Part shown: piece after piece, positions 1,525-5,207 of the stretch
Layout: every line of letters starts with the position of its first letter
Numbering within the stretch: the first letter of the stretch is position 1
Assembly: GCA_031254255.1 (NCBI GenBank)
Contig: JAIRUT010000069.1
Span: 1 to 5,290, forward strand
Direction of reading: 5' to 3'
DNA length: 5,290 nucleotides
Source of the DNA: Coriobacteriales bacterium
Lineage (GTDB): Bacteria; Actinomycetota; Coriobacteriia; Coriobacteriales; UBA8131
The notes under the pieces: generated by a model
What the model saw: the letters and a program-made list of their open reading frames with translations, nothing else
What the model was told of the DNA's origin: nothing
Databases searched by the model: none
Position numbers and translations under genes: made by a program

Positions 1525-2690
1525 GGAAGCACTGGGGCAATATCTTGACGATAGTTCTGACGGTGATCATCCTTGCAGCCGGTACTATCCTCCCAACCCA
1601 GCTCTACCCGCTGATCGGTCAATACGAAAATAAAGTCGTCGGACTCGAGGCGCCAACCGGGTCGGAAGAAAGCCAGGATGTTTTTGATGAGCCTGTCCAC
1701 CTCTATCCGTGGGATCAATACGACAGCAACAACGTGCGGCCGCTGACTACAGCTGAGCAGAGTCTGATCAATGATCACAAGGTGTTGGACTACCTGTTGG
1801 CCGTCCTTGAAAACCGCGGGTTTGATATTCAGGCCAACCCTCGTTATCGCGACGACCTGCTCTCCTCCTTCGTCTACCTGCAGATAGTCAGCGATACTGT
1901 CCAGAGCTGCCTTGTCTTGATGGATAAGGATCTCGACCGTGATGGAGTGGCTGACCTGCGCTGTGCAGTTGACCTGCAGGGCAATGTGATTTCTTTGTTG
2001 ATACTGAACCCGGGCTATCAGAAGGTGAATCTTGCTTTGCCACCTTCGGCAACCGATACAAACAGCAAAACCACTGACAGTCAGGGCTCTGACAGTCAGG
2101 GCACTGTTGCCGATTCCAGCACACAAGATGCCAACAGCTCCATCAGCGCTAATAGCCAGTCCGAAAGCACGGAGACAAACTCCAATGCCAGTGACTCCGG
2201 GCAAACAGGAACAGGAGCGGGAACAGGAACAGGAACAGGAACTAGCGAAGATATTTCTGCGCAGAATGCAACAGATTCAGTGCAAAACTCAACAAGCTCC
2301 GATCAACCCGAATCCAATGCTAACGCCACGATAAACCCACATTACTTGCCCGTCAACGAGAACATGAGCCTCTGGGCCTTTGTCCATACTACAACTCAGG
2401 AAGTCGACCAAAACAACCAGGCAATCCTCTACGACCACTTCCGAACCATCGACACCAGTTTTCAAAAACAATATGGGTACTCATTCATCGGCCTGCTGAA
2501 AATCCAAAGTGGGTTTGTTCCCAGCCCCGAGGAACTTGCCCCCATCAATGGGGTAGAAATCGTTCCCCAGATCTTCACAACAAATGAATACAGGCTCTTT
2601 ATCTATGACTTGCCCTCATCAATACGCGTCATCCTCTACTTGGATGTATCGACGAAAGAGTGCGCAGGTTTCACGATCCAGCAATTTTGA
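1521..2690 (+). CDS. Membrane-anchored extracytoplasmic protein with low-complexity linker, co-encoded with the kinase
   Basis: I do not recognise a family. The ATG at 1521 overlaps the kinase stop (ATGA) and is preceded by a GAGGGTGA ribosome binding site inside the kinase 3' end, which fixes the start and implies translational coupling. The 389-residue product has a short basic N-terminus (MRKHWGN) and a hydrophobic segment at about 8-25. No lipobox cysteine is seen, so it is probably a signal anchor with the rest outside the cell. A first folded part (about 45-172) includes D137-L-D-R-D-G-V-A-D145, matching the DxDxDGxxD calcium-loop pattern. Residues about 175-271 are a Ser/Thr/Asn/Gln/Gly-rich linker with short DNA repeats. 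A second folded part (about 272-389) is aromatic-rich and ends TIQQF. The context suggests an accessory or regulatory partner of the kinase's sensing domain, but that is inference. The coding call is strong; the function is unknown. Confidence 0.9.
   Translation: MRKHWGNILTIVLTVIILAAGTILPTQLYPLIGQYENKVVGLEAPTGSEESQDVFDEPVHLYPWDQYDSNNVRPLTTAEQSLINDHKVLDYLLAVLENRGFDIQANPRYRDDLLSSFVYLQIVSDTVQSCLVLMDKDLDRDGVADLRCAVDLQGNVISLLILNPGYQKVNLALPPSATDTNSKTTDSQGSDSQGTVADSSTQDANSSISANSQSESTETNSNASDSGQTGTGAGTGTGTGTSEDISAQNATDSVQNSTSSDQPESNANATINPHYLPVNENMSLWAFVHTTTQEVDQNNQAILYDHFRTIDTSFQKQYGYSFIGLLKIQSGFVPSPEELAPINGVEIVPQIFTTNEYRLFIYDLPSSIRVILYLDVSTKECAGFTIQQF
2074..2102 (+). repeat. Two-copy 15-bp direct repeat in the linker coding region
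   Basis: The 14-mer CTGACAGTCAGGGC occurs exactly at 2074-2087 and again at 2089-2102, a 15-bp period. It lies in frame and encodes the duplicated peptide DSQGSDSQG. This looks like a small slippage duplication in the disordered linker of the membrane-anchored protein. Confidence 0.85.
2205..2240 (+). repeat. Hexanucleotide tandem repeat (ACAGGA)x6 encoding Thr-Gly repeats
   Basis: Six consecutive hexamers: five are ACAGGA and the third is the variant GCGGGA. The unit is two codons, so the array encodes TGTGAGTGTGTG (residues 229-240) without changing frame. It sits in the middle of the extracytoplasmic linker, where copy-number change would alter linker length only. The repeat is seen directly; length variation between strains is a prediction. 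Confidence 0.9.
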
Positions 2691-2700
2691 CGAACAATTA

Positions 2701-2742
2701 CAGGTGGTATTTGGTGGTATCTGCAAGTACCACCATCACCTG
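2701..2742 (+). other. Imperfect hairpin with a competing direct repeat, just after the two-gene operon
   Basis: Starts 10 bases after the stop at 2690. GGTGGTA (2713-2719) pairs with TACCACC (2728-2734) around an 8-base loop, and the outer CAGGTG (2701-2706) pairs with CACCTG (2737-2742) across an uneven internal loop. GGTGGTAT also occurs a second time at 2703-2710, so the TACCACC strand has two alternative partners 10 bases apart. No T-tract follows, so it is not a canonical intrinsic terminator. It may protect the mRNA 3' end or be a protein-binding site. Confidence 0.45.
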
Positions 2743-2764
2743 AGCCACCGCTCCAGATGCCGTC

Positions 2765-2799
2765 GTTCTATCCTTTATTGGATAAGAACCGCACTTTTT
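2765..2799 (+). terminator. Weak intrinsic-terminator-like hairpin with a downstream T5 tract
   Basis: GTTC-TATCC (2765-2773) pairs with GGATA-GAAC (2780-2789) around the loop TTTATT, with one bulged A at 2785. T5 follows at 2795-2799 after a 5-base gap. It is the only hairpin in the 3' region of the kinase operon that is followed by a T-tract. The stem is A/T-rich and the T-tract is offset, so termination here would be inefficient. Confidence 0.3.
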
Positions 2800-2843
2800 G
2801 CATGTTCCTGACATTTGTCTGACTGGACACTGGCATTGGGGTT

Positions 2844-2865
2844 TTATCATTAGATCAGTTGATAA
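2844..2865. promoter_or_regulatory. Operator-like inverted repeat TTATCA-N10-TGATAA
   Basis: Perfect 6-bp half-sites at 2844-2849 and 2860-2865, with centres 16 bp apart. They lie immediately upstream of a -10-like TATAAA at 2871-2876. The spacing would suit a dimeric regulator controlling a rightward transcript into the hairpin-rich region. No good -35 box stands at the proper distance, so both promoter and operator are tentative. Confidence 0.2.
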
Positions 2866-2876
2866 GGGAATATAAA

Positions 2877-3096
2877 GCGTGTTTCCTTACGCTAAAGGTC
2901 GGACGGGAAAGCAACGCCCCCCCCCAGGGTTGGCTCTTCCTCCTTGTGATTCATCCCACAATCCTTTCTTTCCTTGGTTTCCCATCCGACCGTCCATCTC
3001 TCAGCAAGCAAGCTTAGGAATGGCCCTCCAACAGCTTGACGCGAAGACCCTCTGTTTCTCTCCTACCCTCCTCATGAGAACAGGGGGTTTTCGCGT
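2877..3096 (+). ncRNA. Candidate structured RNA region (hairpin-dense, no known family recognised)
   Basis: About 220 non-coding bases hold a succession of inverted repeats. AGCGT/ACGCT (2876-2880 with 2889-2893) is a small hairpin. GGTCGGACGGGAAA (2897-2910) pairs with 2978-2991 over 13 of 14 positions and encloses a C9 tract (2917-2925) and a TTGTG/CACAA stem (2944-2948 with 2957-2961). CAAGCT/AGCTTG (3009-3014 with 3033-3038) directly abuts an 18-bp helix (3039-3056 with 3079-3096). That helix has two non-Watson-Crick positions, and both are G-U only if the plus strand is the RNA. In contrast, the single imperfect pair of the 14-bp stem is C-A on plus and G-U on minus, so the strand is not settled. 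It could instead be the 3'-UTR of the minus-strand TraX gene, or two palindromic repeats. I match it to no riboswitch, 6S, SRP, RNase P or tmRNA signature. Confidence 0.3.
3039..3096. repeat. Long inverted repeat / hairpin with 18-bp arms
   Basis: Positions 3039-3056 pair with 3079-3096 without a bulge: 16 Watson-Crick pairs plus G3046-U3089 and U3051-G3084. Beyond a bulged T at 3057, CTC 3058-3060 pairs with GAG 3076-3078, leaving a pyrimidine-rich 15-base loop. No T-tract follows on either side, so it does not look like an intrinsic terminator. It ends 23 bases from the TraX stop codon. Confidence 0.7.
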
Positions 3097-3118
3097 ATTC
3101 GCTGGTTCTAAGCCCGCC

Positions 3119-3910
3119 TCAGCCCCCTGTGATCCAGGGCAGCCATCCGGGAATCCAGTTGCTGGTGACCAGGCCAAAGACCACGCCAATCAACGTGATA
3201 TGCAGCGGATAGTAGGCGTAGAAAAAATACTTGAGCGGCCGGCCTCTTTCCCCATTGTAGAAATAAACCAGGAAAATGGTCGCTGTTGCGCCGATGAAGG
3301 AGTAGAAGAGCTGCGGAGTGTAAAAGCTCCAGACCCGACTAACCACAACGCTGCTGATGCTGGGATCCATCTGCATTCCCAAGATCTGCACCACGTTGCT
3401 CAAGGCGTATATCCAAACTAGCACAATTGGCAAAAACGCCCGCATGCCGCGGTTGCGCAGGCGGTGATAGAGGAGGATCATCGGCACGCCGATGTAGCTC
3501 CAATCGCACCAATGGCTTGCCACGATGGCCAAGACCACAATGCCCCAGAAGAGGATGCGGTTTTTCAGGCGATCGTCTGCCCAAATGACCAGCAGGCCGA
3601 GTAGCAGGGTAAAAAGCACGTTCAGTCTGAACTCGTTGCTTAAAACCCAGAAAAATGGAAACACCGAAATCGCCGCAAAGATCGCCAGGCGCAGTGCATA
3701 TTTGCCAACGTCGCGGGTGTGTTGGTATCCGACGGTCAGCAGGAAGGCCATGATCGGGAAGGTCAGGCCACCCGGCAGGAAGAGCAGGCAACGGGCGACA
3801 AAAGGAAGCTGGTACATGAAGGCATTGCCGATGTGATCAGCCGTCATCCCAATGATGGCGATGATTTTCAGGGTGAAGGAGTTTATGGATAATGATCTCA
3901 GTTTTTGCAT
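3119..3910 (-). CDS. TraX-family multi-spanning membrane protein
   Basis: A 263-residue integral membrane protein of the TraX family, named after the F-plasmid pilin N-acetylase; chromosomal Firmicute members have no proven substrate. Family signatures visible: LKIIAIIGMTADHIG near the N-terminus (Asp25-His26), then FPIMAFLLTVGYQHTRDVGKY at 51-71, FRLNVLFTLLLGLL at 94-107, and the C-terminal KYFFYAYYPLHITLIGV with His237. I count about eight or nine hydrophobic spans. The length is normal for the family and the gene looks intact. The start at 3910 is supported by AGAGGT ending four bases upstream, and a promoter-like -35/-10 pair lies further up. It is transcribed divergently from ppx, and converges on the kinase operon across the hairpin-rich gap. 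No conjugation or pilus genes are nearby, so a role in transfer is unlikely. Acyl or acetyl transfer to an envelope molecule is only a family-based guess. Confidence 0.92.
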   Translation of the reverse strand: MQKLRSLSINSFTLKIIAIIGMTADHIGNAFMYQLPFVARCLLFLPGGLTFPIMAFLLTVGYQHTRDVGKYALRLAIFAAISVFPFFWVLSNEFRLNVLFTLLLGLLVIWADDRLKNRILFWGIVVLAIVASHWCDWSYIGVPMILLYHRLRNRGMRAFLPIVLVWIYALSNVVQILGMQMDPSISSVVVSRVWSFYTPQLFYSFIGATATIFLVYFYNGERGRPLKYFFYAYYPLHITLIGVVFGLVTSNWIPGWLPWITGG

Positions 3911-3949
3911 CTTGACCTCTGGCCGACTCGGGGCTTCGCTTCCTGGGCA

Positions 3950-3978
3950 ATTTTATATGGCTGCTATACTATATACAA
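3950..3978 (-). promoter_or_regulatory. Putative sigma-A promoter of the TraX-family gene
   Basis: On the minus strand, TTGTAT (3978-3973) and TAAAAT (3955-3950) are separated by exactly 17 bp. Each is close to the TTGACA/TATAAT consensus, at 4 of 6 and 5 of 6 matches. Initiation would fall near 3943, giving a leader of about 33 bases before the ATG at 3910. It overlaps the rightward extended -10 of ppx. Confidence 0.6.
3962..3970 (+). promoter_or_regulatory. Putative extended -10 promoter of ppx
   Basis: TG-C-TATACT: a TG dinucleotide one base before a 5-of-6 TATAAT match, the extended -10 form that tolerates a weak -35. No good -35 is present at 17 bp. Initiation near 3977 would give a leader of about 88 bases before the ATG at 4065. 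The element lies between the -35 and -10 of the leftward TraX promoter. Confidence 0.45.
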
Positions 3979-4064
3979 ATTTTTGTTGGAGCAGTTGAAG
4001 GCGCGAAAAACGCAGCCCGTGAAACTGCTGGATAACTCGCCAATACCAATACAGAAGGATTGAG

Positions 4065-5207
4065 ATGACTTTGAAACCTCCCGCACAACCCCTGCAGCTT
4101 TCACTTGGCGGCCAACGGATTGCCGCCTTCGACTTTGGCACGGTGACCACGCGCCTGTTGATCGCCGAGGTCGGCTCAATTGGCATCCACGAGCTGTTGC
4201 GGGAGACCCAGATCACCCACATGGGTCAGGACTTGGATTCCACAGGAGTGATCAGCCTAGAGGCCATCCAGCGGGTGCTGAAAACCTGTCGCAAATACTT
4301 GGCCTGCGCAGCTGCACATGCAGAAGAACAGCAGGTCAAACTCGTCGCCGTTGGAACCTCCGCCTTTCGTGATGCCCAAAACAGTGATGAGCTGTTGCAG
4401 GCTTTGAGCCAGTTGGGAATCCAACCACGTATCGTTACCGGAGCCGAAGAGGCACGCCTGAGTTTTCTAGGCGCCCTGAGCGGTTTTGAGATCGACGATC
4501 TGGAAGACAAAAAGGGGACGGTTCTTTTATGTCCTGCACAATCAGGCGGATCATACGGAAGGTTGTCTTCAGGACATAAAAGAACCGTCCCCTTTTTGTC
4601 TTCAAACATCCTGGTCGTCGATATCGGTGGTGGATCCACGGAGCTGATCGCCGGCGAGATGGACACTGGCCACAAAGATGCAAATGCGGCAAGCAACTGG
4701 GCCTCAGATCTAGCCCAAAGTTCCATTCGGCAAAGCCATTCCTTCAACATCGGCGCCCGTCGCCTCACCGAACGCTATCTGCATAGTGATCCACCGAAAG
4801 CCAGCGAGCTGGATGATGCGCGCCAATTTACGCGCACACTGTTGGCTCCCTGGTTCAAGGAGCTGGAGGAACAAGCTTGGGGCATTGACCACATTATCGC
4901 TGTGGCCGGAACCGCCACGACAGTGGTTTCGATCCGCGACAACATGGTGACCTATGATCCCCAGAAGGTTCACGGTAGCTCGGTCTCATTATCTGAGTTG
5001 AAAGCTGCAAACGAGCAACTCTGCTCGCTGCCTCTCTCAAAGCGCCAGCAGGTGGTTGGCTTGGAACCAGCTCGGGCTTCTGTGGTGATCGGCGGCCTAT
5101 TGATTCTGGAGATAGTGCTGGAGCTAGCAGGCATCGATCACTACATTGCCAGCGAAAGCGATATCCTTCGTGGCATAATCTTCGATGCTTGGGAAAGTGC
5201 CAATTGA
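4065..5207 (+). CDS. ppx: Exopolyphosphatase / Ppx-GppA family phosphatase carrying an in-frame palindromic insertion
   Basis: Cytosolic ASKHA-fold phosphatase expected to hydrolyse polyphosphate ends and/or pppGpp. The ATG at 4065 follows AAGGA (4055-4059) at 5-base spacing. Motifs in order: nucleotide/phosphate loop AAFDFGTVTTRLL (Asp23; usually DIGTNSTRLL, so V-T replaces the common N-S); VAVGTSAFRDAQN at 95-106; TGAEEARLSFLGAL with the likely catalytic Glu128/129; VVDIGGGSTELI with Asp186; NIGARRLTERY; AVAGTATTVVSI at 279-290; DPQKVHGSSVS at 298-308; and the C-terminal GLEPARASVVIGGLLILE and SESDILRGI. The 380 residues exceed the roughly 300-330 usual for short Ppx proteins. Residues 147-180 come from the palindromic element at 4503-4603, and a smaller Ala/Ser-rich expansion lies at about 200-222. 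All recognised motifs remain, so the enzyme may be active. Polyphosphatase versus GppA activity cannot be told from sequence. Confidence 0.95.
   Translation: MTLKPPAQPLQLSLGGQRIAAFDFGTVTTRLLIAEVGSIGIHELLRETQITHMGQDLDSTGVISLEAIQRVLKTCRKYLACAAAHAEEQQVKLVAVGTSAFRDAQNSDELLQALSQLGIQPRIVTGAEEARLSFLGALSGFEIDDLEDKKGTVLLCPAQSGGSYGRLSSGHKRTVPFLSSNILVVDIGGGSTELIAGEMDTGHKDANAASNWASDLAQSSIRQSHSFNIGARRLTERYLHSDPPKASELDDARQFTRTLLAPWFKELEEQAWGIDHIIAVAGTATTVVSIRDNMVTYDPQKVHGSSVSLSELKAANEQLCSLPLSKRQQVVGLEPARASVVIGGLLILEIVLELAGIDHYIASESDILRGIIFDAWESAN
4503..4603. mobile_element. 101-bp REPIN-like palindromic element inserted in frame within ppx
   Basis: Left arm 4503-4536 and right arm 4570-4603 are exact reverse complements over all 34 bases; each contains the GGGGACGGTTC core. 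The 33-base spacer has a further short stem (ACAATC 4538-4543 with GGTTGT 4561-4566, one G-T pair). The perfect symmetry ends at both edges. With one extra base (A4604) the added unit is 102 bp, exactly 34 codons (residues 147-180), and no stop is introduced. Flanking ppx sequence (DDL before, NILVVDIGGGS after) joins naturally when the unit is removed. No transposase is encoded, so any movement would be in trans. The form fits REP/REPIN sequences moved by Y1 (RAYT) transposases, and I recall similar GGGGACGG-type palindromes in Clostridia. The class is inferred; the palindrome itself is certain. Confidence 0.85.

Follow-up and report, generated by a model that had tools for sequence, protein, structure and literature searches.

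The ppx/gppA gene of the studied contig was found to carry a 34-codon palindromic insert. This insert is probably a REPIN-like dimer of inverted 32-nt hairpins with a GGGGAC core, which lies in a variable loop of the enzyme and was likely placed there in trans by a RAYT transposase. The window (the whole analysed stretch of 5,290 nt) is contig C142 of an 849,686-base MAG that was 51% complete, and its features are listed in Table 1. In the inverted-repeat search, the two palindrome arms (4503–4536 and 4570–4603) were 34 nt each, 100% complementary and 33 nt apart. The runner-up among the inverted repeats reported in the window had 24 nt and 75% complementarity. The RNA of positions 4480–4630 was predicted to fold with −85 kcal/mol, whereas shuffled sequences averaged −39.2 (sd 3.6), which corresponded to a z of −12.7, and none of 200 shuffles was equally good. 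The Rfam search of the window gave no match at the gathering score. The ppx frame stayed open across the palindrome, as the initial annotation had noted together with the perfect 34-nt arms and the 34 residues read in frame.

Table 1. Features of the ppx region of the window.
Feature	Position	Strand	Evidence
ppx/gppA gene, 380 aa	4065..5207	+	open frame; Pfam PF02541 (Ppx-GppA) 1.9e-42; AlphaFold2 model resembling Ppx/GppA structures
34 inserted codons, residues 147–180	4503..4604	+	unaligned against 3cer; absent in 13/13 relatives; low pLDDT
Whole REPIN-like palindrome	4503..4603	.	inverted repeat with 34-nt arms, 100%; genome family of 19 sites
Left 32-nt hairpin repeat unit, core GGGGACGGTTC	4504..4535	+	unit comparison; sequence
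35-nt spacer of the ppx dimer	4536..4570	.	no significant similarity to any other dimer spacer of the same genome
Right 32-nt hairpin repeat unit, inverted	4571..4602	-	unit comparison; 32/32 identity to the left unit

Elsewhere in the window, the intergenic region 2860–3110 was structured, with nested inverted repeats and a predicted fold of −96.7 kcal/mol (z −6.5). It occurred as a single copy in the genome and gave sub-threshold Rfam matches only, and it is possibly an unknown RNA or a terminator region. Furthermore, positions 1521–2690 encode a 389-aa protein with a Ser/Thr/Gly-rich low-complexity middle, directly 3' of a HAMP/HisKA sensor kinase gene, and the Pfam search of this protein gave no match.

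The position of the insert in the protein was studied by comparison with homologues. Residues 147–180 were absent from all 13 aligned Ppx relatives, and the solved homologue 3cer aligned to 17–146 and 181–374, so that exactly the insert was left over. The Ppx sequence was preserved on both sides. Of the two closest relatives, P0003 possessed a short loop at this place and P0002 a long loop of unrelated sequence. In addition, the Ppx proteins P0004, P0005 and L022 had longer loops with no sequence relation to the insert. Because several relatives have unrelated longer loops there, the insertion site is a variable loop. The AlphaFold2 model had a mean pLDDT of 86.1, with values mostly above 90 outside the insert and below 50 at residues 2–12, 145–156 and 159–175, and its best structural matches were Ppx/GppA proteins. 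The clean gap in the homologues, the preserved flanks and the loop position were in agreement with what had been expected from the DNA alone. A similar result was obtained for the other two interrupted proteins of this genome. The DUF4130 protein showed a clean gap at the insert in nine of ten relatives, and the closest relative had an unrelated insert of its own. RimM was short at the insert site in six of seven relatives, and the remaining one had a Pro/Gln-rich insert. The element is thus found where loops vary anyway. RimM gave no match to solved structures, and the predicted structure of the DUF4130 protein was set aside as a poor model (mean pLDDT 47).

The palindrome search of the own MAG gave 42 matches with both strands counted, which were reduced to 19 sites, so the dispersed REPIN-like family suspected earlier does exist. 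Three of these sites (ppx, the DUF4130 gene and rimM) interrupted a gene, so that coding sequence stood before and after the repeat. The DUF4130 insert (C83:301–399) divided a Pfam match of 2.8e-34 into two stretches, and the gene was missed by the in-house gene caller. The rimM insert (C87:5662–5693) was a single unit; the Pfam RimM matches of this protein were just below the cut-offs, and its relatives are named RimM. Moreover, the C126 site lay at the start of a peptidyl-tRNA hydrolase, of which it may be a leader sequence, and the C23 site met a radical-SAM/DUF512 gene at the contig end. The remaining 14 sites were outside called genes or overlapped a gene end, several of them less than 50 bases from a gene. 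At C91:557–587 and C89:1928–1961 of this MAG (G000), the repeat encoded the last codons of a called gene (KGDGSFMS and KGDGSFLS, respectively), and these repeat-derived ends are possible new C-termini. The named best relatives of Ppx, DUF4130 and RimM were mostly Coriobacteriales, Coriobacteriia or Eggerthellaceae of the Actinomycetota, which was different from the Firmicute host assumed in the initial annotation.

Each palindrome arm contains a 32-nt unit that is itself a hairpin, in which the core is flanked by two stem halves (for example AAGACAAAAA and TTTTTTGTCTT). Two inverted units together make up a REPIN-like dimer, which is about 99 nt long. In the own MAG, 12 unit pairings were listed, one of which (C147) was overlapping, leaving 11 dimers. 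The spacer was 35 nt in six of the 11 (99 nt in total) and 32, 33, 33, 37 and 43 nt in the rest, and the arms were identical in four. The two arms of one copy resembled each other more than the arms of different copies did, and 13 of 20,000 permutations were as good when all 12 pairings, including the overlapping one, were used. The GTCCT ending was present in both arms of the ppx copy and elsewhere in only one arm of C78:3277. The correction between arms suggested by the initial annotation fits this result, and copying of the dimer as a unit also fits. Related spacers were observed in four dimer pairs (C126/C70 and C20/C147, both inverted; C78/C89; C91/C157), indicating that dimers are copied whole. 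Inspection of the repeat flanks in the own MAG by eye revealed no consistent target duplication. The idea that the repeat had evolved to be stop-free was rejected as unsupported: the 32-nt unit was open in all six frames against a shuffle mean of 5.15 (P 0.29), its ATG variant in five (P 0.23) and the whole 101-nt palindrome in four (P 0.02, as one of three tests).

The occurrence of the repeat was investigated in other genomes. The palindrome was matched in 10 of 60 genomes (own included), and the 12-mer AAAGGGGACGGT was present in 22 of the 60, with 207 copies in G013 and 39 in G027, compared with 0 or 1 per strand for its reversed control. In a draw of 396 genomes from the class, taken without G013 and G027, AAAGGGGACGGTTC was found in 32; the genomes with at least three copies all belonged to the window's own family, and the others had one or two. 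A GTDB contig scan with a longer pattern gave five stretches, from two Clostridiales Family XIII MAGs, a Coriobacteriales MAG, a Syntrophomonadaceae MAG and Eggerthella sinensis DSM 16107; for the E. sinensis copy, no convincing gene was found around the repeat. Phage carriage was considered and dropped: one viral contig had an 18-mer match, without the paired stem.

In-frame inserts were found in many enzymes of these genomes. G013 had them in Mfd, an ABC-F protein, an ABC transporter ATPase, RlmL, a DUF2229 protein, a radical-SAM/DUF3641 protein, a DAO-family oxidoreductase, a class V aminotransferase, PyrD and a PyrK-like protein, and G027 in TrpF, TrpC and threonine synthase. The acyl-CoA synthetase of G027 had an in-frame insert of a different repeat type. 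Several in-frame repeats were present in hypF (2376–5000) and trmD (6132–7097) of L114, a Clostridiales Family XIII MAG sequence, which indicates that the repeat class reaches beyond Actinomycetota. Gaps against solved structures fitted the inserts in TrmD (92–152), PyrD (13 residues), acyl-CoA synthetase (163–225) and RlmL. In one rlmL gene of G013 (L158:765–3305), repeats were inserted in frame at three or more separate places. The adjoining trpF and trpC of G027 (L163:12943–14609) each carried an in-frame dimer of one 38-nt repeat.

The frequency of in-gene copies was estimated from a 603-kb sample of G013, of which the in-house caller assigned 87.7% to coding sequence and a part of which had been selected for its known repeats. 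A hairpin filter of stem ≥6 gave 51 elements; this filter also accepts 53 of 3300 random places and loses real copies such as L158:2283–2357. Seventeen of them were in genes, five overlapped a gene end and 29 were outside; among the 17, L199:7404 at least was chance-like, and a few were close to the end of a gene or within a short ORF. From the 17 in-gene and 29 outside elements, about 8% of genic insertions would be inferred to survive if insertion was random and all intergenic copies survived. In 23 in-gene units of G013, the three reading frames were used 16, 6 and 1 times, and the rare frame of the G013 stem runs into a TGA. An in-gene location, earlier regarded as an oddity, was therefore not exceptional, either here or in the own MAG.

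The link of the repeats to a transposase was examined. The own MAG, which is only 51% complete, gave no Y1 transposase match at E 0.01. A Y1 transposase match was present in 25 of 60 relatives, and the narrow core was found within the 1.5-kb flanks of five of 30 Y1-domain loci. For 16 Y1 loci with longer flanks, five of which had been picked for having the core, a GGGGAC hairpin occurred within 800 bp of the transposase in eight, on both sides in five, and the other half had none near. The hairpins at these 16 loci numbered 22 in 30.3 kb near the gene compared with 16 in 79.0 kb farther away. The G031 locus had the window's exact core. In G013, the richest in repeats here, the one Y1 gene had no GGGGAC hairpin within 800 bp.

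In G027, a RAYT-like gene (L162:5593–6360) was flanked by inverted repeats on both sides. Compared with the repeat inside trpF, trpC and threonine synthase, these showed 4–6 differences in 38 bases. Five of the six units in these three genes were identical to the 38-mer, which had 21 copies in 108 kb with up to four mismatches allowed. G027 thus ties transposase, repeat and in-gene insert together in one genome, though in another genus. All five RAYT-like proteins tested were below the NCBIfam RAYT cut-off (53–77 against 80 bits), and RAYT was still their best match. Helix-turn-helix matches in the transposases were weak and below the Pfam cut-offs (best HTH_23, 1.9e-4, 21.6 against 24.6 bits), and four of ten proteins had none. 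Because G027 supplies an in-gene repeat, a transposase-side repeat and the transposase, RAYT-driven insertion is directly testable.

A RAYT encoded elsewhere would move or copy the dimer as a single-stranded hairpin, and selection would then remove the insertions that break the frame or the fold. The survivors would be those with a length that is a multiple of three, a stop-free frame and a position in a loop. For ppx, a protein product with a flexible 34-residue loop is predicted, and this loop would be of no benefit and of little cost to the enzyme. The element is therefore most probably selfish DNA whose translation is tolerated, rather than a domesticated part.

A much less likely explanation is inactivation or down-regulation of ppx: the long, perfect RNA hairpin would be a target for a nuclease such as RNase III, or an obstacle to translation, and the gene would be on its way out. 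The very stable predicted fold agrees with this; an in-frame, stop-free outcome can arise by luck, and after a recent insertion the intact downstream sequence would say little on function. However, similar in-frame inserts occur in many core enzymes, several per gene in RlmL and HypF, which makes lasting inactivation improbable. The domestication proposed in the initial annotation, in which selection would keep the extra loop for a new and useful property of Ppx (regulation or binding, for instance), appears more doubtful still. The open frame, the identical arms and the extra loops at the same place in several related Ppx proteins would suit it, but those loops are unrelated in sequence, the same repeat class occurs in many unrelated proteins, and the insert is predicted to be disordered. 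An assembly or binning artefact joining unrelated contigs at repeats is hardly credible: four of the 19 sites are at or very near the end of a contig (for C22, C23, C74 and C128, the contig stops in the repeat or within about 10 bases of it) and all in-gene copies found are from MAGs, but the flanks in ppx, the DUF4130 gene and rimM are those of one gene each, in order and in frame, and genes of other genomes are likewise continuous across their inserts, where a chimera would join different genes. Contigs ending at repeats are expected because assemblers break there, and two of the contig-end sites could be halves of one site.

The REPIN-like family enters core enzymes (Mfd, RlmL, PyrD, TrpC, TrpF and TrmD) as well as intergenic space, and it occurs in a lineage for which none was described in the available parts of the cited literature. 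Furthermore, DKKGTVLLC or TKGTVPFV stretches in proteins of these bacteria should be annotated as inserted repeats, not as conserved motifs. Among the matches listed in a search of the open-access literature by title and start of abstract, there was no paper on the present repeat family. REPs inside genes have been described before from other phyla; the novelty is the GGGGAC-core family, its Coriobacteriales-like host and a possible substrate for a RAYT subclass reported without REPs.

According to the accessible sections of PMC3733652, REPs and REPIN dimers with their RAYTs are short hairpins and inverted dimers in many copies near or inside genes, as in the present family. Intragenic REPs, most of them in O. 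terrae and R. conorii, add about 20–30 or more residues to unrelated proteins (PMC3733652, same sections), in agreement with our inserts, and the available portion of PMC6006769 notes that even the transposase genes can contain in-frame REPs. The repeat also flanks a RAYT-like gene, here in the related genome G027. Compared with the two REP super-families, in which a GTAG or CGTC tag remains unpaired at the base of the hairpin (PMC3733652, in part), the present repeats have a conserved GGGGAC core between the stem halves; the 32-nt unit has no GTAG, and CGTC occurs only inside the core on the complementary strand. The host is also different from the REP hosts of that text as far as available, being of an actinobacterium-like lineage, and the word 'Actinobacteria' has no occurrence in PMC3733652. 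The Rickettsia palindromic elements are alike by behaviour alone, as in-frame palindromes in many unrelated genes, and belong to a different phylum; RPE-4 and RPE-6 were placed with the CGTC repeats, for which no transposase association was found (PMC3733652, available part).

The core resembled the motif of TIRYT elements. Their GGGGWSAS terminal inverted repeats stand beside TIRYT transposases (PMC3733652, in part), and RAYT subclass 2.1, probably the same as TIRYT, is given without REP-like sequences in the accessible text of PMC6006769. Similarly, the GGGGAC-type motif here flanks Y1 transposases of about 250–300 aa with a possible C-terminal helix-turn-helix (compared with PMC3733652 and PMC6006769 as far as available). 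The window core GGGGACGG departs from the TIRYT motif GGGG[AT][CG]A[CG] at one place, and GGGGACAG beside the G014 gene fits it. Unlike what the available part of PMC6006769 gives for TIRYT and subclass 2.1, the repeats here are hairpins and dimers that are widely spread and enter genes. Judged from sequence, the GGGGAC repeats are a possible candidate substrate for the RAYT subclass reported without REPs. We tentatively suggest that GGGGAC-core REPINs might be the missing mobile substrates of the large RAYT subclass 2.1 (group 1) and, together with this, a standing source of in-frame segments in Coriobacteriales housekeeping enzymes, several per protein in places.
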